From the NCBI GenBank assembly GCA_947650285.1, contig CANTFL010000034.1:424058-488057 (forward strand): 64,000 bases of DNA, given 5' to 3'. A program made the position numbers and the translations under genes. Shown here one piece after another: positions 7,161 to 64,000 of the stretch. The DNA comes from Hyaloperonospora brassicae (lineage: Eukaryota > Oomycota > Peronosporomycetes > Peronosporales > Peronosporaceae). The notes under the pieces are model-generated. The model saw nothing but the letters and a program-made list of their open reading frames with translations, made no database searches and was not told the DNA's origin. Within the stretch, counting starts at the first letter, position 1, and each line of letters starts with the position of its first letter.

Positions 7161-7360
7161 CTGCTCCTATCTGCAAGCTGTAGGTTCACCCATGGCAGGC
7201 TCTGGTGAAGAAATTTTGCTGCATTTTGCGTGTGTAACATATCAACGCAAATGTCATTTGCGGTGTGTTTGCAGTTTTGGTCAAGCGCTACGAACTACGT
7301 TGCTGTATGTAGGTGAACCCTGAGCGACCGGGTCTCCATGGCTTCAATGTAGTGCGTCTA

Positions 7361-20555: not shown

Positions 20556-20560
<5 letters not shown>

Positions 20561-20602
<42 letters not shown>
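20561..20602. repeat. TA dinucleotide microsatellite
   Basis: An uninterrupted TA run of about 21 units. Confidence 0.95.
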
Positions 20603-23810: not shown

Positions 23811-23950
23811 CATAATATAACTTTGTCGTTCATCTTACGACCACATTCACTTCATTTAACATGAATATCTTAGGTAAAGAGGAGTGCTTTAACGCCAAGT
23901 TTGAGTGCTTTTATCATCCGCGTTAAATCGAATGGAGCGCGATAGAGATT

Positions 23951-25094: not shown

Positions 25095-25649
25095 GTGCAA
25101 TTGGCAAAAGATTTGTCACTCCGTGCTTAATGTGACTGTGGGGCGTCGAAAAACTTTGTTCGCCACCAGTAATTAGAGGGTCGTAGGCTCAAGTTCGTTG
25201 AGCACGACATTTATCTTACGAGGATGACGGTACACCTTGCCACGGGCGCACCGATAACATTTGAAAAACGTGTATTAGGATTCCACTACTCGTTAGAGAG
25301 AGAACAGTACGATGACAACTTCATCGTACTGCATTTTGATGACACATTTAATGTCATCCTGGGATTAGCTTGGCTCAGAAGGTACGAGCCAAGAGTGAGC
25401 TGGCAGCATCGATCCGTGAAGATGCCTGCTGCTTGTTCATCAGATGGCCATCTGATGAACGTCACGGAGCGTCCACAAGTGTGTGGAGGCATTGCGGGTG
25501 AGTGCAATGGTCTCGCTTGCGGTACGTTTATCTAACTAAAAACAAATCTTACATGACTTTTTAAACTATAAGCAAAATATTTTTATGTTGTTGTTGTGAC
25601 TTACTCAAAAAAGAATTGTCAATAGATTCTTTCTTTGATAAATTGTTTT

Positions 25650-25714
25650 GGGAATTGCTAAATTCACACCCCTTTTCCTTCGATTCACACCCTTCCTTCA
25701 AAATCTTATATATA
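25650..25714 (+). repeat. left terminal inverted repeat of Pack-MULE-like insert
   Basis: GGGAATTGCTAAATTCACAC and onward, the inverse of 26362-26427 with a few mismatches. Confidence 0.75.
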
Positions 25715-25769
25715 CAAGGTGTCGCCCGTAGCCAAATGGAACAGAAAGCGGCGAGCCTAGACGATTCAT

Positions 25770-26040
25770 AGCCGAGAGCTCACTTGCATGATTGTAGAGC
25801 GCACTGGGGATCGCACAAAGCCCTTGGCATCGTGCGCGATCTCCATTGCGTCCATCGTCTGAGCTTTAACGGGAGTGACACAACGCCCCACGTGATTTGT
25901 GCCACTTGGCTCCAGTCCAGATCGCCACCTTCACGCGCCTTGAGGACCGTTGTCACTGTTAGGTACAACACGTACGCCCAGCCAGCGCAAGAGACGTCAT
26001 TGAAGGCCAGCAGGTACAAATTTAGTTGCGAGGACTACGC
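25770..26040 (-). pseudogene. captured fragment of 3-hydroxyacyl-CoA dehydratase (HACD/PHS1/PAS2) gene
   Basis: On minus, Y-L-L-A-F-N-D-V-S-C-A-G-W-A-Y-V-L-Y matches the first helix of the very-long-chain 3-hydroxyacyl-CoA dehydratase family. After a frame change near 25857 the match continues as A-Q-T-M-D-A-M-E-I-A-H, then F-V-R-S-P-V and Q-V-S-S-R-L, a hallmark of that family (usual form L-x-L-V-R-S-P-V). Only about 80 of the usual 200-plus residues are present and the frame is broken. The protein would normally act in the ER in fatty-acid elongation. Here it is a gene scrap inside a transposon. Confidence 0.65.
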
Positions 26041-26110
26041 ATACAAAAAGAGGGAACCATGGTCAGCCTTCGCGTTGCAACCTGGACACTCTCTGTATCT
26101 CCTCTTGTTC

Positions 26111-26331
26111 TCACCTTTTGGCCTCCACGACCGTTCGTGGAAAGTCGTCAAGAATTAAGCCACAACGGCCAATCGAACTCTTGATGGCATCCTTAATGAT
26201 ATTGACGACAATCTCGCCGGTCACAATTGCGCCCGACTCCATCGCGGCTTTGACCTTTTTGCCTATATTGGTGCCAGCAGCTACAGCAGCGCGCAAGATG
26301 TCGCCTGTAGCCAAGTGGCAGAGGAATTACT
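26111..26331 (-). pseudogene. captured fragment of adenylate kinase gene
   Basis: On minus the translation gives C-H-L-A-T-G-D-I-L-R-A-A-V-A-A-G-T, then G-K-K-V-K-A-A-M-E-S-G-A-I-V and G-L-I-L-D-D-F-P-R-T-V-V-E-A. These are the NMP-binding region and the F-P-R-T motif of adenylate kinase; the usual G-F-P-R-T reads D-F-P-R-T. The P-loop and the C-terminal half are missing. It ends at a GTGAGA that may be the original splice donor, which would mean genomic DNA rather than cDNA was captured. A second scrap of the same motif (H-L-A-T-G-D-T-L) lies at about 25720-25765. Confidence 0.75.
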
Positions 26332-26361
26332 CTTCTTTGTCCAACGGCGATTGCCTACCTT

Positions 26362-26427
26362 TTATATGTAAGATTTTGAAGGAAGGGTGTGAACCAAAGG
26401 AAAAGGAGTGTATATTTAGCAATTCCC
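26362..26427 (-). repeat. right terminal inverted repeat of Pack-MULE-like insert
   Basis: Ends TTTAGCAATTCCC. It pairs with 25650-25714. Confidence 0.75.
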
Positions 26428-29400
26428 TAACTTTTAACTTTTTTATAATTTTTTTTCTTCAAATACTCATATTTACTGAATTTTCATAGATTTTTTATTA
26501 AAAAATCTTTTTGGTTTATAATGAAAACAAGTTTTTTAGAATTATAAATTTTGATTTTTTGGCTAGTTAGCACGACTGCACAAGACCTGAGCGTAGATCT
26601 TCATTGCACTGTGGAGAAAGTTCCCGGTGGCTGTATAGAAGTACAGACAGCGCCGAAAGTCCACCACTTGAATTAGTCGAGTGGACCGAGACATGGATGC
26701 ATGTATAGCGGGCAACATCTTAGAAAAAACATATCGGTTGTCCGGAGACGTCAACCCAGTTATTCTAGGTCGACCGGAAAGTAGACTATAGAGGATCGGT
26801 ACCTGACTGTAATTGCGCAGCCACAGTCAGAAGACGTCGAGGCAATAAGTCCCACGTAGTTGAGATGAGTTCCTCAAAAGTTACTTACTGAAGGATTAAA
26901 CTCTCAGCAACCTGGGCGGACAAACCCTCAGCAGCCTGTGAAAGCAAGTTCCTAGGAAGAAACCGAGACATTGAACGTCTTCGTCAATGACGGATGAAGC
27001 CTAGGCGCTTATACGATTGATCTGATTGAGCCTCCGAAGTTAACTTCGGAGATAACTCAATTGCCAACGCTTGAATTCAAACGGTTTTTGCGTGATCTGC
27101 GTACTGGCAAAGTCAAGCCGATTTTCATACTCTTCACAGAGGATGCGTAAGTGACCGATAAATGGTCGTCAATAGTACTTGCTGAGAACGAACGGGGTTT
27201 CAGCACCTCATCGATGGAAGAAAGTGTCCTCGATGAGAAGACTCGGATTGAGCGATACACGTCTCAATCCTGGGAGTCACTTCAGGCAAATCCTTTGTAT
27301 AAGGATTTGATCGAATTCAAGGATGTGTTCCCTGAATCAGTACCATGCGAGTTGCCTAAGGATAAGGGTACTGAACACAAGATTGAGCTCAAACCGTACT
27401 CGAAGTACTATGTCATGAATCAGTGGCCACTACCTCGTGAACAAGTACTAGCGATCGACAAGCTCTTTGCTGATTGCTTTGCAGCGGGCCATGTGAGGAA
27501 ATTAACTTCCTCTCATAGCTCTCCGAAATTCTGTGTGCGAAAGGTCATTATAGGATGGTGGATAGTGCACGAATCCAAAAATTCAATTGCTGCAACGGTA
27601 CGGGCTCAGACAACGATACCGAGTCGGGACGTAATCATAGACGGTATCTAAGGGTGCCATCTGCTCGTCAATGGGACTGATGGATGGCTTATATCATATC
27701 TTCATGCGTGAACGGGAAATTTATTACACAGCAGCGAGCACCCCCAGCAAGATGCTGAGGGAGTGGCTGACATGCCACAGAGGCTGAGTAATGCCCCTGC
27801 AACATTAAACAGATGTGTAAGAAATCTGTTGAGCTCGGTGCGGGATTTCGCACCGACTTCTTAGACAATGTGTTCGTCCATAGTGGTCTATGGATGTAAA
27901 GATGAACGTAGAAGTTCACAGAACACACGTTAGTCAGGTCCTACAACCTATGCGCAAGCATAAATTGTACGCCAACCTCAAGGAGTGCATATTTGCGGCC
28001 AGCTATACACCACTTCTTTGGGTTTTGTGGGTAAACAAGGCGTACGCCCTGATCCCGAAAAGATCAAGGCGATCACCGAATGGTCCGTGCCAGTCGATGT
28101 CAAGGGAATAAGGAAGTTCCTTGGTATAGCGGCTCACTTGAGCAAGTACTCGCGCAACTACGCCGAGATAACTGTGCATCTTTCTTGTTTACGTAATAAA
28201 ATGTGAAGTGTTCATGGACGCTGATTGTCACCTTTCCTATGAAGGTATCAAGTAGAGACTAATTCAATTTCCCATACTGACGATTGCAGATCAGAAGAGA
28301 CCATTCAATGTGGTCTGTGACTCCAACGATTTTGCAATCGGCTGTGCGTTGATGGAATTTAAGACAGATGGTGCAAAGCGCGTCATCTGATATCAATCGC
28401 GTCAGCTGCAAGCAGCTGAGCGTAACTACCTATAACATGAAAAGAAAATCGTTTCCGTGAAAAATGCACTGGCCAAGTTTTGTGTCAATCCCTTGGTAAA
28501 TAGACCGTTCGTTGTGTATACGGATCATGCGTCACTACGCGCGGGCGTAAACATCCCACACCTCTTATATAGAATGGCAAGGTGGCTGCATTTCTACGCA
28601 AGGTACAACTTCTTCGTGTATTACAAACCAAGACGACTGAACGTCATCGCTGATGCACTTTTACGCCGGCCCAAATTCGATCCGGGCGCGCAATCCAACA
28701 GTTTAAATAATCCCACTGTTGCGACACTTTCGGTCATTACCCGTATTCAACGTTACGTGACGACATAATGAAGGCTTTCGTAAAAGATAAGGATCTTATG
28801 CGCTTGATGTACCATCTGGTGAATACAACTCGTAAATCGTTAAAAGATATATCGGCTTTGTACCATTCCTCATCGGATTGGTACAACACGCAGCAAGTTA
28901 ATGAACTGTACAGCCGTTGCCGACGACACGCCTCTTTTTCTTCTTGTGTCGTCGCCCCCGCTCAAAACTAATTGCGCCTGCGCATCATGTATGAGTGTTA
29001 CGATTCCCCATCAGGTCGACATAATGGTAGAAGAAAAGACTTACCTTAAGGTAAGTCGTGACTTTTTCTGTCCTCGCCAGTATCAGTTTGTGCGCAAGCA
29101 AATTCGTGCTTGCGAGGTTTGTCAACGGGTGAATCCTAGTCCTTCGTCCCTTGAACCCTTATAACCTGTTCCGACAGCGTACTGGCAGTCCATTTCCATG
29201 GAATTTGTTTTCGGTTACATTGATGACGACCACAAGAATGATAGTATACTTGTGCTCGTTGACCGGTTAAGAAAGATGGCGCATTTTGATGCAGTACCCG
29301 AGTCGATCACGTCACAGGGCTGTTCTCGTGTCTCTATCGACACGATGTTTCGACTCCACGGGTTACCTCCTAAACTCGTGTTTGACCGTGACCCGAGGGT

Positions 29401-31527
29401 TCACGGCGAAATTCGGGCACACCGTGTTTCGAGCGATTGGAACACGTTTGAAGATGTCAACAGCTAACTGTCCCGAAACAGATGGTCAGACGGAACGTAC
29501 AAACCGTGTCCTCAAAGAAATCCTACGAGGTTACGTCCACTCGCTCTAGAGTTGGAGCGAATTCCTACCCATAATGGAAATGGCCATCAATAACTTATTG
29601 CATGCTTCAACTTATCATAAAACGTTCAATGTGAATAGCGTATGCCATCCACGTCTGTCCGCCTTCTTAAAGCGTGACTCTTGGTGAAGGTAAGAGGGAA
29701 TCGCTCGAGCAAAATTCGTACTGGCTCTTGCTCATCATGTGTTAAAACTAACGTCGTCAGCAATGATGCCGATACCGATCAAGCCAACATCAAAGAAGAA
29801 GACCGTCTTAATAATAGCGATGACGCTATTACTGAATCAGACGATGATGACGATGCTAGTATTATCAGAATCTCCAGCGACAATTCCAGCAAGGATAATG
29901 AGACCCTCGCTGATCCACAGATACTAAAAAAAGATTTCTGAAGCTCGCACAAGGCGAACTGAATAAACACTGTCTTTTCAGCAAAAGGTTTTCTAGTGGC
30001 TCAAAAAGCAGTGTCCCGTTTCGCGCAGGACTCCATCCATAACGCGGTGGACCGGGAGAAACAGAATTCTGACAAGAATATAAATTCAATGTTCTTTCAT
30101 TTATTGAACGTGATTTAGTCCTTTTATCGACAATTAGCCTACCTGGAGAGATGTAGGGACTAACATGGGCAGTAGTTCACTGCTGCCCAAGTATATCGAC
30201 CCCTTTCGTGTGCTGCGCTGACAAGGAAACGTATACACGATCGAGCTGCCACTTAGGATGCGAGCGCATGCTACCTTTTATGTGGGGCGTTTCCGCCCGT
30301 AATGTAAGTACGAGCCCTCCTACGACGATGAAGGAATCCCTCACATTCAAGAATCTCCATCAGATTCTTGCGCTCGCGCCCCAGGCGATTAGTCTAGTCA
30401 CGTCTTGAAGATCCCTCTTCATTTAACTGAGAGATCTTCCTGCGGGCTGCCGCCAGCTCTTCACCCAGGGGACGGACATCCCATTCGATCTGGAGCTGTG
30501 CAAGGGCGTAATCAGCACAATACTTCGCACGTTCAGCCTCCCGATCCTTGCGGTGCTTCCGCACAGATTAGTTTGGAGCGTATCGTCTGTCTCGTTCGTG
30601 CTTTAAATCCTCGCGAAATTCAGAGATTACGCGATCCACCTTGCATAGATCGAGATGGTGAGTCGAACGGCTTGGAGGAGGTTTCCTACTCCTCAAGATC
30701 TTTTGGTGGACGTAAACGGTAATCGACGCTTCTTTGTGGAGAGTATAAGGTACTGCCGTGACGCGTTAGCATCATAATGAGTTAATATGTTCAGTGGAAG
30801 GGTATCCACCCTCGCGTTCAGCTGGGACCCCCGCTCTCAACTGATGGTGAATTGTTTTTGGCATTGTCAAGAAGCATAACGAGACGCAATCTTTGAAGAT
30901 GGAACCCATCGTCGATTGAACGCCCGGCGCGTCCATTAAGGGATTGTAATGTATCTATCCCGTTGTAGATCTCAGACGTATGCGCACCCTCCACTAGGGC
31001 TGACTAGGAAGGAAGATCTCCCTGGGGGCGCGAATAAAGTTGTCAACGCAAATCTGACAATTCTCTTCCCGCGAGAGATAAGGCAGTCCTGCCTCTCGAA
31101 AAAGTCGGTGCAATTTATAATTTGCACCGGTTGGCGACTTCTGTTCCTATTGCGAGCTAAATTTAGTTAGTTCAGTCAAGCTTCACAGCGAACATTTAAA
31201 ATATTGGCGATAAGTGAGCTCGACGCTTGCACAAACAAAACATCGTCTCGGTTTTTTGAGGTTGCCGTGACACCATTGATGACTATAAAAGCCACCGATG
31301 TAATAATCATGCTCAGTGCGATAATCTCTCGCGCTGACATCAATACCATGTATTATTGACGTATCGAGAAGTAGGATCCGATAATTTTCAGTGGTATACC
31401 CATACCACTCCCTCAGATTGCTTTATAAAGGCTGCCATAAATTTTTTCAGGAGCAGATCGTAACGCGTTACGATATTGGTCCTCTTGCGTAGTGCCAACA
31501 TGAGGAATGGCACTACGATAGCCGCAA

Positions 31528-32058
31528 TCACTGGGATGCTACGGCTACGATGAATACATGGAATTTCATCGATATCGTCACAATGACTGACGTCCTCATG
31601 TTTCTCACTCGCATTAAATGAAGGCGAGCGCTATCAATCCCATCCCCGCGACGAGTCCTCAGACTAGAAGGATGGGCCGAACACCTCGTAGCGCAGAGTC
31701 TTATAAAGACTGCCACGAAACTTAGCAGTCGTCGTTCCCGCACCCACAGCTTTAAGGTCCGGGATTTGCGGGAGACTGCGAGTCGAACGGGGAGTCCCAA
31801 ATCGCCTTCGTAGACGATTGAATTTTCGGAGTCAACGTCCATGCTACTACCACCGGCAGCAGAAGCTGCGGATGACGAAGCTGCACGTGAATTACCATCT
31901 GCACCTGCAACACTGGGTGTTACAGTCTGATTGCCAGTAGCAGCAGGCGATGAAACACGTGCTACCGAGTCTTGGGTAGCTGGTTCGCCGGCTGCACGCA
32001 TATGTGTAGTCGCTTCAGTAGCGACCTTGTTTGCATAACGCATGGACGAAGTCGCCAT
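31528..32058 (-). pseudogene. antisense frame remnant in decayed Gypsy element
   Basis: An ATG-started minus-strand frame of 176 codons begins 133 bp inside the 3' LTR, the same place as the antisense gene of the young element. It is rich in Ala, Ser and Gly, shares S-S-P-A-A-T-G with the young antisense protein, and has an acidic D-V-D-S-E-N-S-I-V-Y-E-G-D patch like [13 protein letters not shown] there. It then ends early at a stop. Its openness for 530 bp contrasts with the heavily broken sense frames next to it. Confidence 0.55.
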
Positions 32059-32190
32059 GCTCTGAAAAGATAGAACGAGTTAGTCAAACCATTAAGTGCT
32101 CGATTTTCGACAGACCAAATAAATGGTGGTCACTCTGTCACCAAATAATCAAATCACTCATTGTGATGACTGATGGTTAACAAGAGCTGA

Positions 32191-32649
32191 TGTAACGGGA
32201 TGAGCCCGTTACATATATTGATACCAATTTATCAATTTTATAATATTATCTATCGAGATAATATTTAAATAACATTACTCGAGAAGAGGTAATGTCGGTG
32301 GAATATTACCCCCGAGGGCAATATTCGTGGGTACTCCAGGTATTGGTTAATGTACACGGTACATCAACAAAATTAACCACCAATCTCTGCTAGACGCGCT
32401 CAATGGGTGGTGAGCGAGAAACCCACATAGGAGATTGTAGTTTAATATATTTAGATCAAGACAAAGATGGTTTTTACAGAAACTTAACAATATTAAATAC
32501 GGTTCTACCTTTCCCATAAACAGAGCTTTCGAGTTCTTTTACTTTTTCGCTTCCTCACGCCACGTGTACGTGACGTCGGGAGCTTGCAACCGTGTGTTCT
32601 GTTAACGCAAGGTCTTACCAGTCATTTGGTAAGAACGTGCTCCGTTACA
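32191..32649 (+). repeat. 3' LTR of decayed Gypsy element
   Basis: 459 bp, starting with TGTAACGGG-ATGAG-CCCGTTACA, an inverted repeat, and ending GTTACA. Pairs with 23352-23810. Confidence 0.9.
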
Positions 32650-38450: not shown

Positions 38451-38891
38451 TGTAACGGGGCACTGGTGACATCGAACCGGTTAACCAGTACGGAGCTCAC
38501 ATCCACTGACAACAGTGACAGTCAGTGCCCTGCTATGTGTTGCACCAACACAGAGGAAGGAAAGGAGACTAAGTGAACATTCTAGTCCGGTTACAAATAA
38601 AACTGTTCTTTAATACAATTAAGTCCTATCAATCTTATGTCTTTCTTTATCCTGACTTAATTATGTCAGTCTAACTGTACGTATGATGACGTCTACTCAC
38701 TCTTCATTGCGCGCGTCTAGCAGCGATTGGTAGGTTGATATCATCACGATTTTAACCAATGAAAAGACCCTTCGGTCATCTCAACAATATCATCATGCTC
38801 TGTGGTATTGTTGAAAGGATATTCGACGTAATTTTCTTAATTGTCATTTTAGCCTTAATGGCAATATCATTTAACGAGCTATTCCGTTACA
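38451..38891 (-). repeat. solo Gypsy LTR, minus orientation
   Basis: 441 bp from TGTAACGGGG to CCGTTACA. It shares GATATCATCACG and GCGCGCGTCT blocks with the 391-bp LTR family but is diverged. Flanks AGTTC and AGCTC are a probable 5-bp target duplication with one change. No internal region follows, so it is likely an LTR-LTR recombination product. Confidence 0.75.
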
Positions 38892-40044: not shown

Positions 40045-40249
40045 GGTCGATGACCTGCATAGGTGCGTTCGCTGGTAACTATTAGGTGTTTACCTTAGCA
40101 GATGGTGACCGGATCGCCCAGATTTACGTCGAGGCCACGCAGTTGCTCAACTCGGTTGCCAGACAGCTTCAGCATCAGGTGCTTTTATGCTTTTTCACCG
40201 TATTATATCTTAGATTATTTATCAGATCACGCTCTTTCGACACATGACG

Positions 40250-40643
40250 TGTAACGGGGCACACCCTTGCGTGACCTTAACGCAAGGGTTTTGGTGCCCC
40301 GACAGACGTACACGAGGCAAACGAGGAAGCGTAGATAAGGGAAAAGTAGAACTAATATATTATCATAATTAAATCTTTAACCACTGTCTCTCTGTTTGAC
40401 TTAACTTAATTATACTTATCAAACTGAATGTATGACGACGTCTCGTCACCACTCATTGCGCGCGTCTTGCGGCGATTGGTGGGTTGATATCATCACGATA
40501 TCAACCAATAAACAGACTCTTTGGTCGACCCATCAATATCACCACCATTGGTGATATTGTTTACAGAATATCCAACATAGTATTCTTTATTGTCATTGTT
40601 TCTTTAAAGTGACAATTTCCGTGTAACGGGCTGCCCCGTTAAA
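40250..40643 (-). repeat. solo LTR of the young Gypsy family, minus orientation
   Basis: 394 bp. Its reverse complement aligns along the full 391-bp LTR of the element at 43578, including the TGTAACGGG terminal hairpin and the ACCCTTGCGT / ACGCAAGGGT hairpin. Flanks TGACG and TTACG are a probable target duplication with one change. It shows the family has moved here more than once. Confidence 0.8.
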
Positions 40644-40699
40644 TTACGTGTAATAACACATTATTTTCTTTCTAACACCTCAGCACACGCAATTTTTAT

Positions 40700-43359: not shown

Positions 43360-43577
43360 AGATACTTATAGGGGGATGCCGGATAATGAGAGCGGATCCA
43401 TACGCAAGGCTGTGTGCTGACACAAAAGAGGTCTGTATTATGGAGGGGTGTGCACAAAGCATAGAATATTTATTATGGCGTTTTGTATCAATAAGTGTGC
43501 AATAACTAGCTAGGGAGGTCACGGTACTTAAAGAGGGGTCTCTACTTCAGGGATGGGTGTACGCATCCAAGGGTGGG
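43360..43577 (-). repeat. inner right TIR of MULE B
   Basis: Inverse of 39627-39850; it continues at 51563-51600 beyond the Gypsy element. Confidence 0.85.
43573..43577 (+). repeat. target-site duplication GTGGG (left)
   Basis: Identical to 51563-51567 on the other side of the Gypsy element. Confidence 0.9.
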
Positions 43578-43968
43578 TGTAACGGGGCAGCCCGTTACAT
43601 GAAATTGTCACTTTAAGGAAAGTGACAATAAAGAATATAAAGATGGATATTCTTTAAACAATATCACCAAAGTGGTGATATTGAAGGGTCGACCAAAGGG
43701 TCTGTTCATTGGTTGATATCGTGATGATATCAACCCACCAATCGCCGCAAGACGCGCGCAATGAGTGGTGACGAGACGTCACCATACATCCAGTTATATT
43801 AGTATAGTTAAACTAAGTCAAACGAAGAGACAGTAGTTTAAAGACTTAATTATATTAATATAACAGTTCTACTTTTACCCTACCTACGCTTCCTCGCTTG
43901 CCACGTGTACGTCCGTCGGGGCACCCAAAACCCTTGCGTTAAGTTACGCAAGGGTGTGCCCCGTTACA
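43578..43968 (+). repeat. 5' LTR of young Gypsy element
   Basis: It starts with TGTAACGGG-GCAG-CCCGTTACA. Further hairpins follow in series: ATTGTCACTTT-AAGG-AAAGTGACAAT (43604-43629), AAAGAATAT / ATATTCTTT and CAATATCACC / GGTGATATTG. It ends with ACCCTTGCGT / ACGCAAGGGT. Confidence 0.95.
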
Positions 43969-44012
43969 CCTGGTAGCACTTTGTAGTCCTTCCAAGGACC
44001 ACATCATCCAAC

Positions 44013-45167
44013 ATGAACATGTTGGATGAAGAAGACACCTTTCACGCCACGCGTGAAGGGTTTACCCATTTGAGTGACATCGAATGGGGTGCGGTAGAAC
44101 GAATGAGTTCTACCGTAGGCGAACTCGTCGTTAGCGCCATGTTGGAGTCTCTAGACAGAGACCAACAACATGCCGCTATTGCCAAGTTCATTCAGAATGA
44201 ACTTGCTCTCGAGAGGGAGAAAGTAGCCTTGCTTCACCAGCAAGGCTCTCAACAGGCCGAGCAGTTGAGAGAACTCGGTGCTCAACAGACGGAGCTGTTG
44301 AGACAGCAGCAATTCCATGCTGCTGTGGGCGGGACGGCGCATGCGCGTCGTCCCGAAGTCATGAAAGTTGACATCTCCAAGTACAGTGGAGTCCCGGAGG
44401 ACTCCCTGTTACTATGGTTTGTCGAACTCGACAGAGCCCTAAGGGCTCGTCGCGTCGAAGATGAGCAAATGAAACTCACATTTGCTCAGACCCACTTGGC
44501 AGGGCGTGCCAAAACTTGGTCCCTGGGACTCGAGAGTAGCGACCCAAACGTGTTTAGGTCGCTAGATGACTTCAAGTCCCGGCTCAGACAAACGTTTGAG
44601 CCGCCACGGGCTGAGTTCAGGGCTCGTTCAGAGCTCCTGAAACTCAAGCAGGGTAAGCGTGATGTGCACGCTTACGCACAACATATACGACTCCTTGCGA
44701 GTAGTATAACTGCTAACCCAGTACATGAACACACGTTGATTACGGTGTTCATGCAAGGGCTCGCAGAAGGGCCCGTCAGGAGCCATCTGTTCCGCCTTGA
44801 GCTGAATACGCTTGAAGAAGCGATATCAGCCGCGGAACAGGAAGACTTTAGCATGAGACAGGCTCATGCTAGCTCAAACTCTTATCGTCCACCGAGACGA
44901 CAAGAGATCGGAGGTCCAGAACCAATGGACCTCTGCTATGTTGAGAGCGAGAGACCTCGCTCTTCAAACAACAAGCGATTGCAGAGGTGCAATCGCTGTC
45001 AGAAGTTAGGGCACTACGCATACGAGTGTAGTGCTCCACGCCCAGTACCAAACAGTACTGAGCGAAATGGACGACCATTCGCCAGAAAGGGCAATGGGCG
45101 TGGGTCCAGCGCTGTTGCGAAGCCGCAACAGCGAGACGGACCATCAAAAAATGGTCGGGGTCAGTAG
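44013..45167 (+). CDS. gag: Gypsy Gag protein
   Basis: 384 residues from the ATG at 44013 to TAG at 45165-45167. The N-terminal part is helical and charged with L-E-S-L-D-R-D-Q-Q-H; the middle matches the retrotransposon gag domain (W-F-V-E-L-D-R-A-L-R, L-A-G-R-A-K-T-W-S, F-R-A-R-S-E-L-L-K-L-K-Q-G). A complete zinc knuckle C-x2-C-x4-H-x4-C lies at 44988-45029, followed by a basic, glycine- and asparagine-rich tail. It would form the virus-like particle and bind element RNA. Near its end sits a likely -1 frameshift site that would fuse it to Pol. Confidence 0.92.
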   Translation: MNMLDEEDTFHATREGFTHLSDIEWGAVERMSSTVGELVVSAMLESLDRDQQHAAIAKFIQNELALEREKVALLHQQGSQQAEQLRELGAQQTELLRQQQFHAAVGGTAHARRPEVMKVDISKYSGVPEDSLLLWFVELDRALRARRVEDEQMKLTFAQTHLAGRAKTWSLGLESSDPNVFRSLDDFKSRLRQTFEPPRAEFRARSELLKLKQGKRDVHAYAQHIRLLASSITANPVHEHTLITVFMQGLAEGPVRSHLFRLELNTLEEAISAAEQEDFSMRQAHASSNSYRPPRRQEIGGPEPMDLCYVESERPRSSNNKRLQRCNRCQKLGHYAYECSAPRPVPNSTERNGRPFARKGNGRGSSAVAKPQQRDGPSKNGRGQ

Positions 45168-45183
45168 GGGCGGAGCGCCCTAC
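45146..45183 (+). promoter_or_regulatory. putative -1 ribosomal frameshift signal (gag to pol)
   Basis: A-AAA-AAT in the gag frame (45146-45152) fits the slippery X-XXY-YYZ rule. After 11 bases comes an inverted repeat, GTAGGG(G)CG / CGCCCTAC (45164-45183), whose stem contains the gag stop codon. Pol is in the -1 frame and is open from 45152 with no stop. Position, frame and downstream structure agree; the spacer is slightly longer than the common 5-9 bases. Confidence 0.6.
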
Positions 45184-48100
45184 TGATCCAGCAACCTCAA
45201 GAGAATTTGCAAATCTCTTGACGAAAGTTGCTCCAGATACACAATCATTGTGTGTCTCTGCACCTGGTGATGACGTTTCGCTCATCACCTTGAAGTTGGA
45301 AGCGACAAATGATTTGTCGCTTCGTGCCCTAGTAGACTGTGGGGCGTCGAACAACTTTGTTCGTCGCCAGTCACTAGAGGGTCGTAGGCTCAAGTTCGTT
45401 GAGCGCGACATTCCCCTCACAAGGATGACGGTGCGCCTTGCAACAGGCGCATCGATAACCGTTGAGAAACGTGTAGTAGGAATCCACTACACGTTAGAGG
45501 GCGAACAGTACGATGATGACTTCATCGTACTAGATCTGGATGACAAATTTGATGTCATCCTGGGATTACCTTGGCTCAGAAAGTACGAGCCAAGGGTGAG
45601 CTGGCAGCATCGATCCGTGAAGATGCCTGCCGCTTGTTCATCAGATGGCCATCTGATGAACATCTTGGAGCGTCCACAAGCGTGTGGATGTTCTGCGAGT
45701 GAGTGCGATGGCCTCACTTGCGGTACGGTCGTTAGCACGACTGCACAAGATCACAGTGTAGTTGATCACTACACTGTGGAGCAAGCTCCCGGCGGCTGTA
45801 CAGATGTACAGGCTGCGCCGAAGGTCCACCACTCGAATAAGTCGAGTGGACCGGGACATGGATGCATGCCTAGCGGGCAGCATCTTAGAAGAAAGAAACC
45901 TGTTGCCCCCAAGGGGCAACATGAAAATCCTAGGTCGACTGGAGAGTCGACCGTAGAGGATCGGTGCCTGACTGTGGTTGCACAGCCACAGTCGGAAGAC
46001 GTCGAGGGAATAAGTCCCCACGTACTTGAGGAAGGAATTCCTCAAGAGTCGCTTGCTGAGGGATTAGGCCCTCAGCAACCTGTGGAAGCAAGTTCCCAGG
46101 AAGAAACCGAGACGTTGAACGTCTTGGTTAATGACGGATCAAGCGTAGGCGCTTATACGCTTGATCTGATTGTGCCTCCGAAGTTGACTTCGGAGATAAC
46201 TCAGTTGCCAACGCTAGAACCGAAACGGTTCTTGCGTGATCTGCGTAGTGGCAAAGTCAAGCAGATCTGCATACTCGTCACAGAGGATGAGTATGTGACC
46301 GATATTCGGTCGGCAACAGTATTTGCTGAGAACGAACGGGTTCTCAGCAGCTCATCGATGGACGAAAGTGTCCTCGATGAGAAGACTCGGATTGAGCGAT
46401 ACACGTCTCAATCCTGGGAGTCACTTCAGGCAAATCCTTTGTATAAGGATTTGATCGAATTCAGGGATGTGTTCCCTGAATCCGTACCTTGCGAGTTGCC
46501 TAAGGACAAAGGCACTCGACACGAGATCGAGCTCAAACCGGGCTCGAAGTACTGTGTCATGAAGCAGTGGCCACTGCCTCGTGAACAAGTACTAGCGATC
46601 GACAAGTTCTTTGCCGATCGCTTAGCAGCGGGCCATGTGAGGGAATCAACATCCCCTCACAGCTCTCCGACCTTCTGTGTGCGAAAGGCCACAGGAGGGT
46701 GGCGGATAGTGCACGCATTCAACAAATTGAATGCTGCAACGGTACCGGCTCAGACGCCGATACCGAGGAAGGACGTAATCATAGATGGTATGTCAAAGAG
46801 TACCATCTTTTCGTCCATGGATCTGATGGATGGATTCTATCAGATCCTGATGCGTGAACGGGACGTCCCGTTCACGGCAGTGAGTACCCCCAGCGGGATG
46901 CTGTGGGAGTGGCTAGTGATGCCACAGGGGCTGAGTAATGCCCCTGCAACATTCAACAGATGTGTTACAAATCTGTTGAGACCGGTGCGAGACTTCGCAC
47001 CGAGTTACTTCGACGATGTGTTCGTCCATAGCCGGGCTATGGACGGAAAGACGGACGTTGAAGTTCACAGAACTCACGTTCGTCAGGTTCTTCAACTTAT
47101 GCGCAAGTATAAGTTGTACGCCAACCTCAAGAAGTGTATATTCGCGGCTAGCGAAATACCACTTCTTGGGTGCATCGTGGGTAAACACGGCGTACGCCCT
47201 GATCCCGAAAAGATCAAGGCGATCACCGACTGGCCAGTGCCAGTCGATGTCAAGGGACTAAGGAAGTTCCTTGGTCTTGCGGCGTACTTGCACAAGTACT
47301 CGCGCAACTACGCCGAGATGACTGTTCATCTTTCTTGTCTGCTCAAGAAAAATGTCAAGTGGTCATGGAACGCTGAGTGCCAGCGTTCCTTTGAAGGTAT
47401 CAAGCAAAGCTTGATGCAATCGCCGATCTTGGCGATTGCAGATCAGGACAGACCATTTCATGTGGTCTGTGACGCCAGCGATTTCGCAATCGGCTGTGCG
47501 TTAATGCAGTTCGATGCAGATGGCGCGGAGCGCGTCATCTGTTATCAGTCGCGTCAGCTGCAAGCAGCTGAGCGTAATTACCCAGTGCATGACAAGGAAC
47601 TCCTTGCCATGAAATACGCACTGGCTAAGTTTCGCGTCTATCTCTTGGGAGATAGACCGTTTGTTGTCTACACGGACCATGCGTCATTACGCACGGCCGT
47701 AAACAGCCCACACCTCTCGCAAAGAATGGCGAGGTGGCTGTCTTTCTTCGCGGAGTATAACTTCTCCGTGGAGTATAAACCGGGACGACTCAATGTCGTC
47801 GCTGATGCGCTTTCGCGCCGGCCCGATTTCGAGCCGGACGCACAATCCAACAGTGAGGATAAGCCCACTGTTGCGACACTGTCAGTCAGTGTCCCGTCGT
47901 CAAGTTTACTTGACGACGTACGAAAGGCATACGCGGAAGATAAGGATCTTCTGCGATTGATGGATCATCTGGTGAATCCATCCAGTAAATCCATGAGGGA
48001 TTTACCGGCTTTGTACCGATCCTCATCGGATCGGTATAGTACACGCAACGGATTGCTGTACTATACAGCTGTTGCCGACGACACGCCTCGTGTCGTCGTA

Positions 48101-49081
48101 CCCGCTCATCATGATTTGCGTTTGCGCATCATGTATGAGTGTCACGATGCCCCAACAAGCGGCCATCGTGGAAGGGAAAAGACTTACCTCACGGTAAGTC
48201 GTGACTTTTACTGGCCCCGCCAGTATCAGTTTGTTCGCAAGTACATACGTGCTTGCGAGGTTTGTCAACGGGTGAAGCCTAGTCCTTCATCCCGTGCGCC
48301 ATTGCAGCCTCTGCCTGTTCCGACAGAGTGCTGGCAGTCCGTTTCCATGGACTTCGTCTTCGGGTTTCCCGAAGACGCTCACAAGAATAATGGTATTCTT
48401 GTGTTTGTTGACCGATTCAGCAAGATGGTCCATCTTGCTGCTGTCCCTGAGTCGATCAAGGCTCAAGGTTGTGCTCGTGTCTTTCTAGACACGGTCTTTA
48501 GACTCCACGGGTTACCCCGTGAACTCGTATCCGACCGTGACCCTCGGTTCACGGCGGCATTTTGGCAAACCGTGTTCCGTACTCTCGGAACACGATTGAA
48601 GATGTCCACTTCTGACCATCCAGAAACAGATGGTCAGACGGAACGTGCGAACCGTGTCCTCGAAGAGATCCTTCGAGGATATGTCCACTCGTTTCCGAGT
48701 TGGAGCGAATTCCTACCCATGGTGGAATTCGCCATCAATAATTCGGTGCATGCTTCCACACAGCACACACCGTTTTACGTGAATGGCCTACGCCATCCAC
48801 GAGTGCCCACCCTTATAGAGTGTGACTCTTGGATAAGGGGGGAGGGACTCGCTCGAGCAAAAACCGTTTTGGCTCTTGCTCATCACGTGTCGACGCTAAC
48901 GTCGTCACGTATGATGCCGATGTCGATCAAGTCGACATCGATGAAGAAGATCATCTCAATAATAGCGACGACGCTATTATTGATTCGGATGATGATGACG
49001 ATGCTGGTATATTCAGCATCGCCAACGATTATGTCAGCGAGGAAGAAGACAACCTCGCTGAAGAAGAGAGCAATCTCTTAG
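45152..49081 (+). CDS. pol: Gypsy Pol: protease, reverse transcriptase, RNase H, integrase
   Basis: In the -1 frame relative to gag, open from 45152 to 49081. Domains in order: aspartic protease with L-V-D-C-G-A-S-N-N-F (about 45327-45356); reverse transcriptase from about 46465, catalytic Y-F-D-D at 47006-47017; RNase H (about 47440-47840, V-C-D-A-S-D-F-A-I-G and Y-T-D-H-A-S-L-R); integrase zinc finger with H-x-H and C-E-V-C (about 48105-48275); integrase core with the first Asp in S-M-D-F-V-F-G, the second in S-D-R-D-P-R-F, and the Glu in Q-T-E-R-A-N-R. All catalytic residues I can check are present. After about 48840 this frame stops resembling the family, and the integrase C-terminus continues in the next ORF one base back. 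It has no ATG of its own where protein similarity starts. Confidence 0.92.
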   Translation, partial: WSGSVGAERPTDPATSREFANLLTKVAPDTQSLCVSAPGDDVSLITLKLEATNDLSLRALVDCGASNNFVRRQSLEGRRLKFVERDIPLTRMTVRLATGASITVEKRVVGIHYTLEGEQYDDDFIVLDLDDKFDVILGLPWLRKYEPRVSWQHRSVKMPAACSSDGHLMNILERPQACGCSASECDGLTCGTVVSTTAQDHSVVDHYTVEQAPGGCTDVQAAPKVHHSNKSSGPGHGCMPSGQHLRRKKPVAPKGQHENPRSTGESTVEDRCLTVVAQPQSEDVEGISPHVLEEGIPQESLAEGLGPQQPVEASSQEETETLNVLVNDGSSVGAYTLDLIVPPKLTSEITQLPTLEPKRFLRDLRSGKVKQICILVTEDEYVTDIRSATVFAENERVLSSSSMDESVLDEKTRIERYTSQSWESLQANPLYKDLIEFRDVFPESVPCELPKDKGTRHEIELKPGSKYCVMKQWPLPREQVLAIDKFFADRLAAGHVRESTSPHSSPTFCVRKATGGWRIVHAFNKLNAATVPAQTPIPRKDVIIDGMSKSTIFSSMDLMDGFYQILMRERDVPFTAVSTPSGMLWEWLVMPQGLSNAPATFNRCVTNLLRPVRDFAPSYFDDVFVHSRAMDGKTDVEVHRTHVRQVLQLMRKYKLYANLKKCIFAASEIPLLGCIVGKHGVRPDPEKIKAITDWPVPVDVKGLRKFLGLAAYLHKYSRNYAEMTVHLSCLLKKNVKWSWNAECQRSFEGIKQSLMQSPILAIADQDRPFHVVCDASDFAIGCALMQFDADGAERVICYQSRQLQAAERNYPVHDKELLAMKYALAKFRVYLLGDRPFVVYTDHASLRTAVNSPHLSQRMARWLSFFAEYNFSVEYKPGRLNVVADALSRRPDFEPDAQSNSEDKPTVATLSVSVPSSSLLDDVRKAYAEDKDLLRLMDHLVNPSSKSMRDLPALYRSSSDRYSTRNGLLYYTAVADDTPRVVVPAHHDLRLRIMYECHDAPTSGHRGREKTYLTVSRDFYWPRQYQFVRKYIRACEVCQRVKPSPSSRAPLQPLPVPTECWQSVSMDFVFGFPEDAHKNNGILVFVDRFSKMVHLAAVPESIKAQGCARVFLDTVFRLHGLPRELVSDRDPRFTAAFWQTVFRTLGTRLKMSTSDHPETDGQTERANRVLEEILRGYVHSFPSWSEFLPMVEFAINNSVHASTQHTPFYVNGLRHPRVPTLIECDSWIRGEGLARAKTVLALAHHVSTLTSSRMMPMSIKSTSMKKIISIIATTLLLIRMMMTMLVYSASPTIMSARKKTTSLKKRAIS

Positions 49082-50061
49082 CAGTGCGCACGAAGCGCAC
49101 TGACAGACAAAACAAAGAGTCAGCAGAGAACTTCCTGCTGACTCGAGAAGCGGTAGTCCGTTTCGTTCAGGACTCCATCGCAAATGCGGTGGACCGTCAG
49201 AAACGGAACGCAGACAAGAATGGAAGAGCAAATGTTCTTTCATTTAAGGTTAACGACCTAGTACTACTGTCTACGGTAAACTTACCTGGACATGCAGTCA
49301 CTAGTGTCGGCAGTAGTAAACTACTGCCGAAATACATTGGGCCATTTCGAGTGTTGCATCGCAAGGGCAATGCATACACACTCGAATTGCCACGTAGGAT
49401 GCGCACGCATCCTACGTTTTACGTGGGGAGGCTTAGGTCGTACTGTCAGTACGAGCCTTCTTCTTCCGATGAAGATAGCCCCCACGTTCAAGAACATCCA
49501 TCAAGTTCTTGCGTTCGCGCTCCAGACGATCCGTCTGGTCGCGCAGATATGATACCTCGGAACTCAACCGAGATATCTCCCCGCGAGCTGTCGCCAGCTC
49601 GCCGAATAGGGAGCGGACATCCCGCTCGACCTGAAGCTGCGCTGTGGCATAATCGGCGCGATCCCTCGCCCGATCAGCCTCGTGACCCTTGCGGTTCTTC
49701 CGCACGGTATCGGTCAAAGCGTAGCGCCGGTCGCGCTCGTGCTTCAAGTCATCGCGCAATTCATCGATTGCGCGATCCATCTCGTAAGGGTCGAGATGGT
49801 GAACCGAATCATCTGGAGGAGGTCTTTCCTCCTCCACCACATCCTTTGGTGGATGCTCACGGTGATCAACGCTTTCTAGTGGAGCGTATCTTGAATCACC
49901 GTGACGATTCAGGATCAAGGACGAGCTACCTCGTCCAGTGGCGGGGGTATCCACCCTCTTGGAACAGCTGGGAGCCCCGCTCTCAGCTGTTGATGGATGT
50001 TGAAGGTCTCGTCCGCCAGTATGACGAGACCCATCCGATGAGTCCTGTGGCCCATCGGTAA
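48829..50061 (+). CDS. pol: Pol C-terminus: integrase tail and chromodomain, -1 frame
   Basis: Overlaps the main pol frame and is one base back from it; the switch probably lies at the G run 48837-48842. It begins [10 protein letters not shown], has an acidic Asp/Glu linker, then an integrase C-terminal domain ([12 protein letters not shown] and A-Y-T-L-E-L-P). A Pro/Ser/Arg-rich linker of low complexity follows (about 49447-49860). A chromodomain lies at 49864-50040 ([15 protein letters not shown] and W-N-S-W-E-P). Chromodomains steer integration toward particular chromatin. The 3' half is opposite the antisense gene. Confidence 0.88.
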
Positions 50062-51040
50062 ACACGCGCCCTAGGCGCTTGTAGACGGATTGCAAGTTTG
50101 CAATCGCGTCACGCATCTCAGCCGAGATGTGTGCCCTTCCCCAGGGCGAATTTAGGGAATACACATCCCTATGTGCACGCTGCGAGTTGTCAACACAACT
50201 CGCACAAGGGTCTCCCCATGTGAGGCAAGGAATGCCTGCCTCACTCGATAAACAATGCAACCGGTACCTAGCACCGGTTGGCGTTCGCCTTTCGAACCTG
50301 AGGCGTGTCGCCTCAAGTTTCTTGAGCCACCCTTCTCGTCCAAAATTCTTTACGTTTTGGACGAACGCGTTCCACGCAGCCAAAAGCGAGGCCTTGTCAC
50401 GCTTTTGGTTGCTGTTGTACCATCGATGTCTAAGGAAGACATCGAGATAAAAGTCTTCTTCAGCGCGAAAGTTCTTCGCGCTGGAACTCAAGCCGTGAAG
50501 CTCGGTTGCATCGAATAAGGGTATTCGATGGTGTTGGCCTGTCTCGTGAGACAGGCTATTGATGAGCCGTTCGGGCAAACGCCACGGCTTCAACTCATCA
50601 CGCTTCACAGTGGTACCCTTGTCGGTACCACGGCTCCCAGATTGACGACGGCTCGCGCCATCGTCATCACGCTCGTGCGAAGACGCACGAGCCGGCGGTG
50701 GTGAGGAATAGAATTCCTCACCACCCTGATCATCGTCATCACTGCCGAACAGACTGTGATGCAAATCACGAGTCCGTTCGTTCGGCAGTGGTCTTGGCGA
50801 ATACTGAGGCGTCGCCGGTGAGCGAGACGCCTCTGGAGCATTGCCCGAGTCAGACACGTCTGACTCGCCAGAGTAGATGACCTCTACATCAGGGTCATCG
50901 TGCGCACGCGGTGTGATACCGCGTGCACCTGCAGCACCTGTTGCTGCAGGCGAAGAAGGGGCGGCAGACGACGAATCGTCTGCCGCAGAGGCTGGCACAG
51001 CACCGGGCTGTGTGGGTCTTGAGTCACCTCGCATAGACAT
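49433..51040 (-). CDS. antisense gene of Gypsy element: 535-residue coiled-coil protein
   Basis: ATG at 51040, 132 bp inside the 3' LTR, open for 535 codons and ending within the sense pol C-terminus. Residues 1-150 are Ala/Ser/Asp-rich and probably disordered. About 150-310 look folded: [28 protein letters not shown], then a cysteine cluster H-C-x6-G-I-P-C-x6-C-A-S-C that may bind metal. About 310-420 are low-complexity and lie opposite the chromodomain. About 421-520 are strongly charged heptad-like coiled coil ([20 protein letters not shown]) opposite the low-complexity sense linker. The tail is basic (R-K-K-K-A-R). I do not recognise the family; function unknown. About 630 bp overlap sense pol, about 980 bp do not. 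Confidence 0.7.
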
Positions 51041-51159
51041 GTTAACTATGCGAGGTCAAGCGGAAAGTGAATGGAACGGACCCAACAAGTGCTCCCTGTC
51101 CCAATGGTGGCCAACGGGTGGCCTCCATATTTTCGATAGTCACACGGTGACTATCAGTT

Positions 51160-51171
51160 AAGGGGGGGTGA
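51160..51171 (+). promoter_or_regulatory. polypurine tract of young Gypsy element
   Basis: AAGGGGGGGTGA directly before the 3' LTR start at 51172. Confidence 0.75.
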
Positions 51172-51562
51172 TGTAACGGGGCAGCCCGTTACATGAAATT
51201 GTCACTTTAAGGAAAGTGACAATAAAGAATATAAAGATGGATATTCTTTAAACAATATCACCAAAGTGGTGATATTGAAGGGTCGACCAAAGGGTCTGTT
51301 CATTGGTTGATATCGTGATGATATCAACCCACCAATCGCCGCAAGACGCGCGCAATGAGTGGTGACGAGACGTCACCATACATCCAGTTATATTAGTATA
51401 GTTAAACTAAGTCAAACGGAGAGACAGTAGTTTAAAGACTTAATTATATTAATATAACAGTTCTACTTTTACCCTACCTACGCTTCCTCGCTTGCCACGT
51501 GTACGTCCGTCGGGGCACCCAAAACCCTTGCGTTAAGTTACGCAAGGGTGTGCCCCGTTACA
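51172..51562 (+). repeat. 3' LTR of young Gypsy element
   Basis: 391 bp, one mismatch against 43578-43968. Confidence 0.95.
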
Positions 51563-51567
51563 GTGGG
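51563..51567 (+). repeat. target-site duplication GTGGG (right)
   Basis: Pairs with 43573-43577. Confidence 0.9.
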
Positions 51568-61600: not shown

Positions 61601-64000
61601 TGATGCTTCCACCTTTTTCCTGAAGTAATTCACATTGCGTTTGTTGATATAATGGGGTCCATGAGGTCTATATAAAACGTTTCTTTCTCAGTACCACAAC
61701 CAAATTTTTATCGCCAACCGATGATCACAAATTATATAGCTCAACTCCATTATTGGATCGCGTTCCTCACGACGGGCTTCTAGTGAGCATAGCCCAAAAT
61801 TTCTTGGCTTTAGCCAGCAATGTCTACTGTGCGTATCGGCTTCTTTGGACCAAAACCTTCTATGAACATTACATGCAAATGAGTACGAAAGCACGTCATT
61901 TATCAAAACCAATAAGAATAATTTTTAATACATATACAATTTATTGGAAAATTGTAATTTGCCCCCATATAATCAATTTTGAGGTCAATATTTTAGCCCG
62001 TCAATTTTATATAATAGGTACTAATCAAGTTAACATTGATATAATTTTTCATTCAGAGACTCCTCCCATTACGACTACCTTTTACGAGTTTCAAAAATTA
62101 CTAAGTGCTTCCAATAAATTTTCAATTTATTGTGGAAAATAAGGCGTATATTAATTGGTTAAAAATATAAGTAGTATCTTTAACTGCAACGGAAGTAAAA
62201 TGTATTAACAATATTTTTTCTTGGATGCGACGGCGATGTTAGCGATGCATGATGTATTAGCACCGCAACCTTTCTATCTCGATTATTATCATTTCCAGAA
62301 TTAAATAGCGAGAATTAGCCATTACTCCGCAAAAAAATATATCTATTCATTAACTTCAACCAGATAATTGATGCCATTTATTGCAAATACAATTGTACCA
62401 CGTAGTTTTACTTACCTATAAAAGCCATTAAACGTGACTACAATTTTCTTGAATATAAAAGTTTCTTGATTGTTTCATCAAAACTGTTTTAATTATAAAA
62501 CTTTTTTGTAACTAGTGAATAATTTTGGCCTGTAAAAGGATGCTTTAACAAGTCCACAACATGGGCTACGACAGACCTAAAACGAATATCTTCGTACAAA
62601 ACTATACTAGTACATCTTATAAAGTGATTTTGGTTTTGTGTGATTAATTGATTCAAATCTCATCCTCTCATGACAGTGTAACGAAGTGTAGTTCACCAAT
62701 TAATGATGTAATCAGACTTTCCACTAATACCCGGACGACTGACTATTGGAGGAGGCACTTCGTTTCCGTGTAAGAAGTTCTTATCACTAGATGTAACCTT
62801 TGGCAGGGCACAAGTTGCACTCCAGTCCGTGGCCTTGAGTCGAATCTGACGCTGACCGTATTTGACATCAATCAGGGGCGATCAATCGTTAAGCTTTACG
62901 CGATCGAGGTTATTTTTGGGGGCATCTCTTCAGATTTTCTGATCTATCTTAAGATAGCCTTGTCTAAACTGTAAATACATGAACGACTTAGTTTCTGGTC
63001 AATTCGACTGTCTAGCAATATTGTAACCAGTCCTTTTTGTCATAATAAGTCTAATCTTAGAGAGATTTGCTTGGGTTCAGATCTTCTTCTAATCCCTGAA
63101 CCACCAAATTCAGGTGTTCGAATTGAGGTTCTTGATAGACGCGGGCAGAGATATTTCGCCCGGAAAAATTATGTTTGCGTGTAAGAAGATATTATAACGA
63201 TGTTTATGTTCAACTGCAAAAAAGACAATACACGTCTATGCCTATCTTTAAGCAAAATCATTTGCCATGTGTTATCCTTGTTCGAATGATCGTATATTGC
63301 CTAACTCAGATACCTACCATATATTGCCCATCTGATCTCAATAAAATAAGCCTAAGCTGCAAATCTCGATTGAGCCATCTTCGATCGATCTCGATCGGGG
63401 AACAACATATCGCGGTTACGATAACATAAACTTAGATCGTGGTTACGACCGAATGACCCAGGATTGCGATCACGACATATTGACTCAAAAATTGGGAGCG
63501 ATAAATTAGTCAACATTAACCACCTCAATTGAGCCAGAGATAACGATTTGCTGGCCGTTAGTAGCATCATTGTCTCAACTTCGTCAATGACAAATAGTAT
63601 ATCCCGATCGATTCTCTAGTACCTTGACCCCTGTCGGTCAGGTAGCCCCTAAACGGTATATATATATATATATATATATTTAACTTCAGATGTCCGAGCC
63701 TTGCGAAACATGGGTTCCACTTTATTATTAAATACTCGTCCAAATTATCCTTGACACCGCTGCTTCATCCTTTATGCGTTTTTCACAGCCATATATTCCA
63801 TCATAATTTTTGGGGCCAACGTATATTACTCTATCGATATTTCCTTCGACTGTATACTTAACTTTGATCTCAACGTCATTTAGCATAAAATATGCATACT
63901 AACTGTGAAAATATTGAACATATTATTTATTATCTTATGGGTACGTGAATGAACTATCTGTATGTTTGCGAATGCTAAAAGACCACAGTGAGCGAGTCCG
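52628..64000. other. 11.4 kb AT-rich, no gene supported
   Basis: Only short frames without family motifs are found on either strand. A direct repeat GTATGTTGCAACGCA (near 53507 and 53550) and a TA microsatellite near the right end are the only clear structures. The frames around 56900-57230 and 61753-62142 were read and look like chance. It probably holds very old, unrecognisable transposon debris. Confidence 0.5.
63657..63679. repeat. TA dinucleotide microsatellite
   Basis: About 11 TA units. Confidence 0.9.

Follow-up and report, generated by a model that had tools for sequence, protein, structure and literature searches.

What could turn the protein-coding sequence of a retrotransposon into an almost unbroken series of short perfect hairpins, and what would keep them there? 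The question arises from a Ty3/Gypsy long terminal repeat (LTR) retrotransposon with a chromodomain, complete from LTR to LTR, at 43578-51562 on the plus strand of a 64,000-nucleotide stretch of Hyaloperonospora brassicae DNA (the window; contig CANTFL010000034.1). This element is called A, a related element at 23352-32640 is called B, and other genomic loci or copies carry L-numbers. A first-pass annotation of the window had described A as a young oomycete Gypsy element carrying a near-continuous chain of hairpins, one every 30-60 bases and far above chance, and had named two possible causes: selection for a folded RNA, or template switching by reverse transcriptase (RT) that makes imperfect palindromes perfect. 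The evidence presented here favours selection for folding and speaks against template switching. Features that the annotation did not anticipate are the absence of a G-U preference, the equal folding of both strands of pol, the related families with hairpins of other sizes at mostly different places, and a conserved gene on the antisense strand of the element. The explanation we tentatively prefer, at close to an even chance, is that A, a young Gypsy element present in many copies, is under selection for local self-folding along its entire length, with escape from double-stranded RNA (dsRNA) and small interfering RNA (siRNA) silencing as the likeliest role.

Hairpins were counted as perfect inverted repeats with arms of at least 8 nt and loops of at most 12 nt unless stated otherwise, and counts were compared with 200 shuffles for each part (synonymous-codon shuffles for coding parts, dinucleotide shuffles elsewhere). 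The 7,992 nt scanned across A contain 114 hairpins, which cover 34% of the element while the protein code is kept. Their arms are 8-14 bp long, mostly 8-11, loop lengths peak at 4-5 nt, and the hairpins overlap each other by 4 nt in total compared with 377 nt expected under random placement. The spacing proposed in the first-pass annotation holds for the median centre-to-centre distance (52 nt; the mean is 70 nt), and all six hairpins that it quoted were found in place, several of them 1-2 bp longer than written. Examples are a hairpin with 11-bp arms at 44183-44205, one with 12-bp arms and a 1-nt loop at 45299-45323, and a 28-bp perfect palindrome at 45635-45662, of which 13 of 14 pairs are unchanged in B.

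Every part of A exceeded its shuffles. The 5' LTR (43578-43968, plus strand, 391 bp, ends TGTAACGGG...CCCGTTACA) and the 3' LTR (51172-51562, plus strand, 391 bp) have 7 hairpins each against shuffle means of 0.09 and 0.11, respectively. The gag open reading frame (ORF; 44013-45167, plus strand, 384 amino acids) has 15 against 0.49 (maximum 3), the pol ORF (45218-49081, plus strand, 1287 amino acids) has 52 against 1.07 (maximum 5), the overlapping open frame that carries the chromodomain (48829-50061, plus strand, 410 amino acids) has 10 against 0.64 (maximum 4), and the 3' region has 20 against 0.21 (maximum 2). Over all parts the shuffle maxima were 1-5, which rules out chance, base composition and codon usage as the source of the hairpins. 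Three ordinary ORFs at 2115-9758, which the first-pass annotation took for housekeeping genes, do not match this density and have 1, 1 and 0 hairpins compared with 0.47, 0.95 and 0.17 in shuffles, which is background. Neither result that the annotation had named as refuting its claim, a density no higher than in codon shuffles or an equal one in ordinary genes, was thus obtained. Together with five other RT-bearing loci at or near background (L069-L073, described below), they rule out a genome-wide property. Microsatellites were also rejected as a source because the densest of the remaining 4-kb bins of the window, with 32 repeats at 20-24 kb, is largely a single (AT)n run; (AT)n microsatellites at 20560-20602 and 63657-63679 raise simple inverted-repeat counts.

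Predicted folding gave the same picture. Mean folding energy per 120 nt of pol was -48.3 on the plus strand compared with -32.3 in codon shuffles (z -33) and -48.3 on the minus strand compared with -31.3, and the plus strand of gag reached z -22 against codon shuffles. In 351-nt fragments the predicted energy went beyond codon shuffles by 46.5% in pol, 55.8% in gag and 41.8% in an antisense ORF inside the element, compared with -0.6% and 4.4% in two control ORFs. When arms of at least 6 nt are counted, only 21% of the 25-nt windows in A are free of stems compared with 89% in shuffles.

Selection was tested on variants among copies of A, using the window copy as the reference and 44 other young copies. 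A site was represented by as many as 45 copies, falling to about 30 beyond 45.2-48.7 kb. The test left out seven copies that were diverged or mosaic, and 41 of 5,000 sites were dropped because the window copy has the minor allele (33 outside hairpins, 7 in loops and 1 in an arm). Singletons are expected to have arisen mostly after insertion, and variants found in at least two copies to have mostly passed through transposition. Singletons were as frequent in arms (114 of 1272 sites) as outside hairpins (314 of 3292), with 50 of 395 in loops. Multi-copy variants were about twofold depleted in arms (19 of 1272 compared with 102 of 3292 outside) and not depleted in loops (13 of 395; arm versus rest, Fisher P=0.0095), and at third codon positions the counts were 9 of 419 in arms, 65 of 1072 outside and 7 of 119 in loops (P=0.016). 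Without dropping any sites the contrast was stronger (20 of 1273 in arms, 137 of 3325 outside and 22 of 402 in loops, P=0.00016), and before sites were dropped none of 543 shifted masks was as low as the real arms. When eight of the 44 other copies were used in turn as the reference, the direction was the same in all eight, with P<0.05 in seven and P=0.058 in one. Transmitted variants are depleted in the arms of A.

The phase of the hairpins relative to codons points the same way. Pairing third codon positions with each other wastes free sites, and this phase is rare in gag and pol, where 9 of 67 hairpins fall in that class compared with 152 of 511 (30%) in shuffles (P=0.0015). In the part that codes only on the antisense strand, read in the antisense frame, the counts were 5 of 18 compared with 64 of 98 (65%) in shuffles (P=0.0013). 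Like the variant-frequency test, these phase counts support the selection proposed in the first-pass annotation.

Paired changes among close relatives of A are also consistent with selection. In eight A-like copies and 26 hairpins, 10 of 12 two-sided arm changes counted by copy and hairpin (9 of them distinct) retain a Watson-Crick pair, and 12 slid registers used as a control gave 0-5 retained pairs. A hairpin with 9-bp arms at 45901-45921 has a C-G/T-A paired difference in L061, L062 and L065, and one at 46053-46078 changes from G-C to A-T in L039 and L043, with the next pair changed in L062. Inside the latter, at about 46068, a 24-nt stretch is present in L061, L062 and B and absent from A and the other aligned A-type copies. 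The diverged A-type copies L061-L065 have fewer hairpins (7.0, 4.5, 10.1, 11.6 and 10.6 per kb), roughly as random decay predicts, though in 5 of 10 A-type copies tested hairpin retention exceeds the 95th percentile obtained when random decay is simulated. Most arm differences depart from the state common to A and B (24 of 31 in L061, 22 of 32 in L062 and 12 of 15 in L039). Overall, selection seems a better cause than mutation and seems to be what keeps the hairpins, and it would act on the pairing itself rather than on another property of the arms.

The main mutational alternative is that RT perfects quasi-palindromes by repeated template switching inside them, while purifying selection on the protein filters the products. 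Template-switch mutation in quasipalindromes yields perfect palindromes and loop inversions. The perfect complementarity of the hairpins without a preference for G-U pairs is what such a process would produce, and the family-specific sizes (arms mostly 8-11 and loops of 4-5 in A, arms of 6 and loops of 0-2 in the related L067) and the absence of codon-phase avoidance in L067 also fit it; the process itself is known (in the available text of PMC7202029). However, its signatures in the form of one-arm tracts and templated clusters were not found in A, with the exception of one loop inversion. Among 90 clusters of at least three close differences among copies, only one is a local reverse complement under a strict test (an exact tract with 2-nt flanks within 60 nt). 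It is an exact inversion of a 4-nt loop in copy L029, in the hairpin at 45110-45133, and is the only clear event resembling a template switch. Copying one arm onto the other also predicts one-arm tracts, yet one-sided differences between A and B in 79 coding-region hairpins number 92 on one arm and 90 on the other, arise independently on both and do not cluster on one arm (overdispersion 1.07, P=0.35; five shifted pseudo-arm sets gave 1.21-1.62). Additionally, each of the 13 distinct changes seen on both arms alters one pair only in any copy that has it. Template switching is therefore disfavoured as the source of the hairpins, and we regard the mutational explanation as improbable. Correction alone could nevertheless account for some of the depletion of variants in arms.

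If the hairpins are selected for folding, the next question is which strand is folded. One alternative holds that what is selected is folding of the genomic RNA (the plus strand), which would serve its packaging, compaction or stability or control its translation and would have no role in evading silencing. This alternative shares all of the evidence for selection from shuffles, folding energy and the variant test, and the genomic RNAs of Ty3, Ty1 and HIV-1 have stable structured regions (PMC11381356, in the text available). Folding of a plus-strand RNA should tolerate G-U pairs and so predicts G-U over A-C. A preference for G-U was sought in the near-perfect hairpins, the helix flanks and the transmitted variants of A, and none was found. 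Near-perfect hairpins have 16 G-T and 13 A-C mismatches, and mismatches flanking the helices are near expectation (outer flank 19 G-T and 16 A-C of 114; inner flank 15 G-T and 16 A-C of 89). Transmitted variants in arms include 3-4 that make G-U compared with 10 that make A-C. Both strands of pol fold equally well, and hairpins occur in every part of the element rather than being confined to a packaging region. Plus-strand folding alone thus fits poorly, strand-specific RNA structure is unsupported, and this alternative is unlikely.

A second alternative places the selection on DNA, with hairpins in the single-stranded minus-strand complementary DNA (cDNA), or cruciforms, protecting or organising the reverse-transcription intermediate. 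It accounts for the strand symmetry, the perfect Watson-Crick pairing and the presence of hairpins in every part of the element, and the lean toward A-C on the plus strand would be G-T on the minus strand. That lean, however, reaches only P 0.07-0.14, and a Gypsy family of the same genome (L069) is near background, and we consider this explanation unlikely. Since a G-U pair on one strand is an A-C mismatch on the other, the absence of a preference is read most simply as a need for Watson-Crick pairing on each strand. This and the equal folding of the two pol strands suggest that the selected property is probably the self-pairing of both complementary strands, that is, of the sense RNA together with an antisense RNA or the minus-strand cDNA.

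A also contains a conserved antisense gene. The ORF at 49433-51040 on the minus strand encodes 535 amino acids, has 24 hairpins and has homologues in other oomycetes. Eight homologues were found at an E-value of at most 0.001, including Hyaloperonospora and Peronospora proteins, and they cover 31-96% of the ORF at identities of 36-53% for seven and 88% for one (from ENA). The aligned homologues have cysteine, histidine and tryptophan positions in common, one UniRef homologue carries the name core-binding domain protein, and a Pfam scan of the ORF returned no family over its cut-off. The part encoding the C-terminus lies antisense to the chromodomain frame. An antisense gene would imply antisense transcription, which would in turn allow sense/antisense duplexes to form. 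In Phytophthora infestans, small RNAs map in both orientations along two Gypsy-type elements, and the model proposed there includes duplex-derived siRNAs (PMC3522703, in the text available).

The preferred explanation can then be outlined as follows. Selection would drive the LTRs, gag, pol, the antisense gene and the 3' region to fold locally, and point substitutions, aided by synonymous sites of the coding strand, would assemble short perfect stems one after another without overlap. Stem-breaking variants would tend to fail transmission. Local stems would hinder pairing of the two strands with one another or with small RNAs, which may allow the element to escape dsRNA/siRNA silencing, and the stems themselves (8-14 bp) are expected to be too short for Dicer. 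The antisense gene, the two-orientation small RNAs of P. infestans and the scarcity of stem-free 25-nt windows favour such a self-folding shield against duplex formation, though the role in evading silencing is an inference.

Other families of the genome were compared using eight RT-bearing loci (L066-L073), each read over 3.5 kb and standing for a single family or group. The first-pass annotation had called for a comparison with other Gypsy families, and the result was divided: three relatives are rich in palindromes and a distant one is not. L066 has 19 hairpins compared with a shuffle mean of 0.56 (maximum 3), and L068 has 12 compared with 0.68 (maximum 4). L067 has no hairpin with arms of at least 8 nt, but has 33 with arms of exactly 6 where 7 are expected, 4 with arms of 7 and none longer, with loops mostly of 0-2 nt. 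These are individually weak as RNA hairpins, yet predicted folding of L067 is still raised (z -6.8), and two further copies of its family (L074 and L075, more than 99% identical) show the same 6-nt-arm pattern. Among the palindrome-rich relatives, only the L067 piece shows a chromodomain. The distant Gypsy locus L069 has 2 hairpins, and L070-L073, in which Pfam finds RT only and which are labelled as resembling long interspersed nuclear elements (LINEs) by inference, have 1, 2, 2 and 0, all near background. Palindromes are thus enriched in four related families (A, L066, L067 and L068). Folding-energy excess was 13.1% in L066, 13.5% in L067, 7.8% in L068 and 9.5% in the LINE-like L070. L066 and L068, which are 69% alike in protein, share 6 hairpin positions compared with 0.4 expected, and positions in L067 and L068 overlap within 4 nt (P=0.015).

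Element B (plus strand, end approximate) served as a comparison lineage and has hairpin-rich LTRs but far fewer internal hairpins. It is 76-79% identical to A in the main DNA matches and 85% identical in a compared 2-kb stretch of pol, where B has 3.0 hairpins per kb and A has 12.9. This suggests that most hairpins of the chain either arose in A or disappeared from B once the two lineages had separated. Over 3.9 kb the pol of B has 10 hairpins with arms of at least 8 nt, and 26 with arms of at least 6 where 10 are expected. By eye, hairpins also follow one another through the LTRs of B (23352-23800 and 32191-32640), and their offsets resemble those in A even though the LTR sequences of the two elements can hardly be aligned; the first hairpin differs between the two LTRs of B by clustered changes. 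Relative to A, B has an insertion of about 1 kb at 25527-26565, with 74-nt inverted arms at 25647-25720 and 26357-26430 that are 89% complementary, and this is possibly a separate mobile element.

Several of these results are caveats for the preferred explanation and weigh against it. The P values of the variant test are modest, some multi-copy variants are recurrent mutations, and the depletion could also be explained if reverse transcription erases one-sided mismatches. Third-third pairing is not avoided in L067 (13 of 36 hairpins in that class) or in the chromodomain frame (4 of 10), which overlaps coding sequence on the opposite strand. The covariation check that had been suggested earlier succeeded among the A-like copies but not between A and B, where one of five two-sided differences in pol retains its pair, no better than slid registers. 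The transmitted arm transitions (10 making A-C compared with 4 making G-U) do not differ significantly, and in gag the plus strand folds slightly better than the minus strand. The hairpin-poor pol of B indicates that the wider lineage can do without the dense chain. The palindrome-rich L068 falls below the LINE-like control L070 in folding-energy excess, which is a noisy measure. Finally, hairpin positions are mostly not common to A and L066-L068, with chance levels in 8 of 9 tests (the exception being A and L068 at 1 nt, P=0.041), and position-conserved cis-elements are unsupported for these comparisons. A wider proposal, that a whole retrotransposon clade evolved a two-strand self-folding shield from RNA silencing with stem sizes and positions particular to each family, is possible but doubtful.

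The description of A as a young Gypsy element is well supported. Its LTRs are identical at 390 of 391 positions, and it has the TG...CA ends and target-site duplication (GTGGG at 43573-43577 and 51563-51567) of a Ty3/Gypsy chromovirus. A G-run lies ahead of the 3' LTR. Pfam families over their cut-offs are Retrotrans_gag and Ty3_capsid in gag, and protease, RT, RNase H and integrase in pol; a zinc knuckle in gag scores below its cut-off. The domain order is that of a chromovirus (gag, protease, RT, RNase H, integrase, then chromodomain), with the chromodomain and a Tf2-1-like SH3 domain in the second, overlapping frame in this copy. The RT-containing frame varies among copies, being often 1339 amino acids and in some 1605-1666, and the 3' end of pol may occur in two frame arrangements within the family. 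Copies are nearly identical, with at least 40 full-length DNA matches in the genome and at least 150 places where the RT protein is 98-100% identical; the analysis covered 47 A-type copies and five diverged ones. Among the matches listed, pol is closest to named proteins of Peronospora effusa (85%) and P. matthiolae (79%), in agreement with an oomycete element, and relatives sought in a viral contig collection were not found there. Copy L039 is a mosaic, nearly identical to A around RT (46.5-47.1 kb) but only 78-94% identical per 150 nt at 47.3-48.7 kb, where the differences are mostly at third positions and include several paired arm changes; its sequence suggests recombination with another lineage. 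Two LTR-like pieces lie on the minus strand of the window, one at 40249-40647 that is 89% identical to the LTR of A and retains three hairpins with arms of 10-11, and one at 38589-38891 that is 75% identical.

If the selection reading is true, A would be a case of genome-wide structural selection in a host-resident retroelement, perhaps on both strands. It would also offer a testable link between the success of a transposon, judged by its many near-identical RT copies, and the resistance of its nucleic acids to duplex formation. As a comparative system, the genome offers four related families that differ in stem size, alongside others poor in hairpins.

A survey of part of the results from openly licensed papers found no description of such a hairpin chain in a retrotransposon. 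By protein alone, the pol of A is of a type found in Gypsy elements of oomycetes (Peronospora, Globisporangium and Phytophthora relatives), at 48-86% identity over the covered part among 120 listed of 440 matches. Ty3 is the namesake of the superfamily. Like A, Ty3 and Ty1 are LTR retrotransposons whose genomes have structured regions, and structured stretches are interspersed with dynamic ones in the Ty3 genomic RNA, but in these elements stable, highly structured regions make up to 30% of the RNA and the available text makes no mention of tiling by perfect palindromes (PMC11381356). The nearest known phenomenon is the genome-scale ordered RNA structure of RNA viruses, which like the chain in A consists of many consecutive stem-loops through coding sequence at poorly conserved positions (PMC7642675, in the text available). 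That structure has been linked to evasion of RNA sensing (PMC3950689, in the text available), which for A is only proposed. However, A is a host-resident LTR retrotransposon with hairpins also in its LTRs and antisense gene, its short perfect stems do not show the strand-specific G-U pairs expected of ordered viral RNA, and both strands of its pol fold equally. The mean predicted folding excess of 42-56% in the gag, pol and antisense gene of A compares with 15% in SARS-CoV-2 under similar but not identical protocols. The highest genome value recorded in the available text of that virus study is 23.4%, with local peaks above 50% (PMC7642675), and the predicted excess in A would thus be about twice the highest value recorded there for a vertebrate RNA-virus genome.

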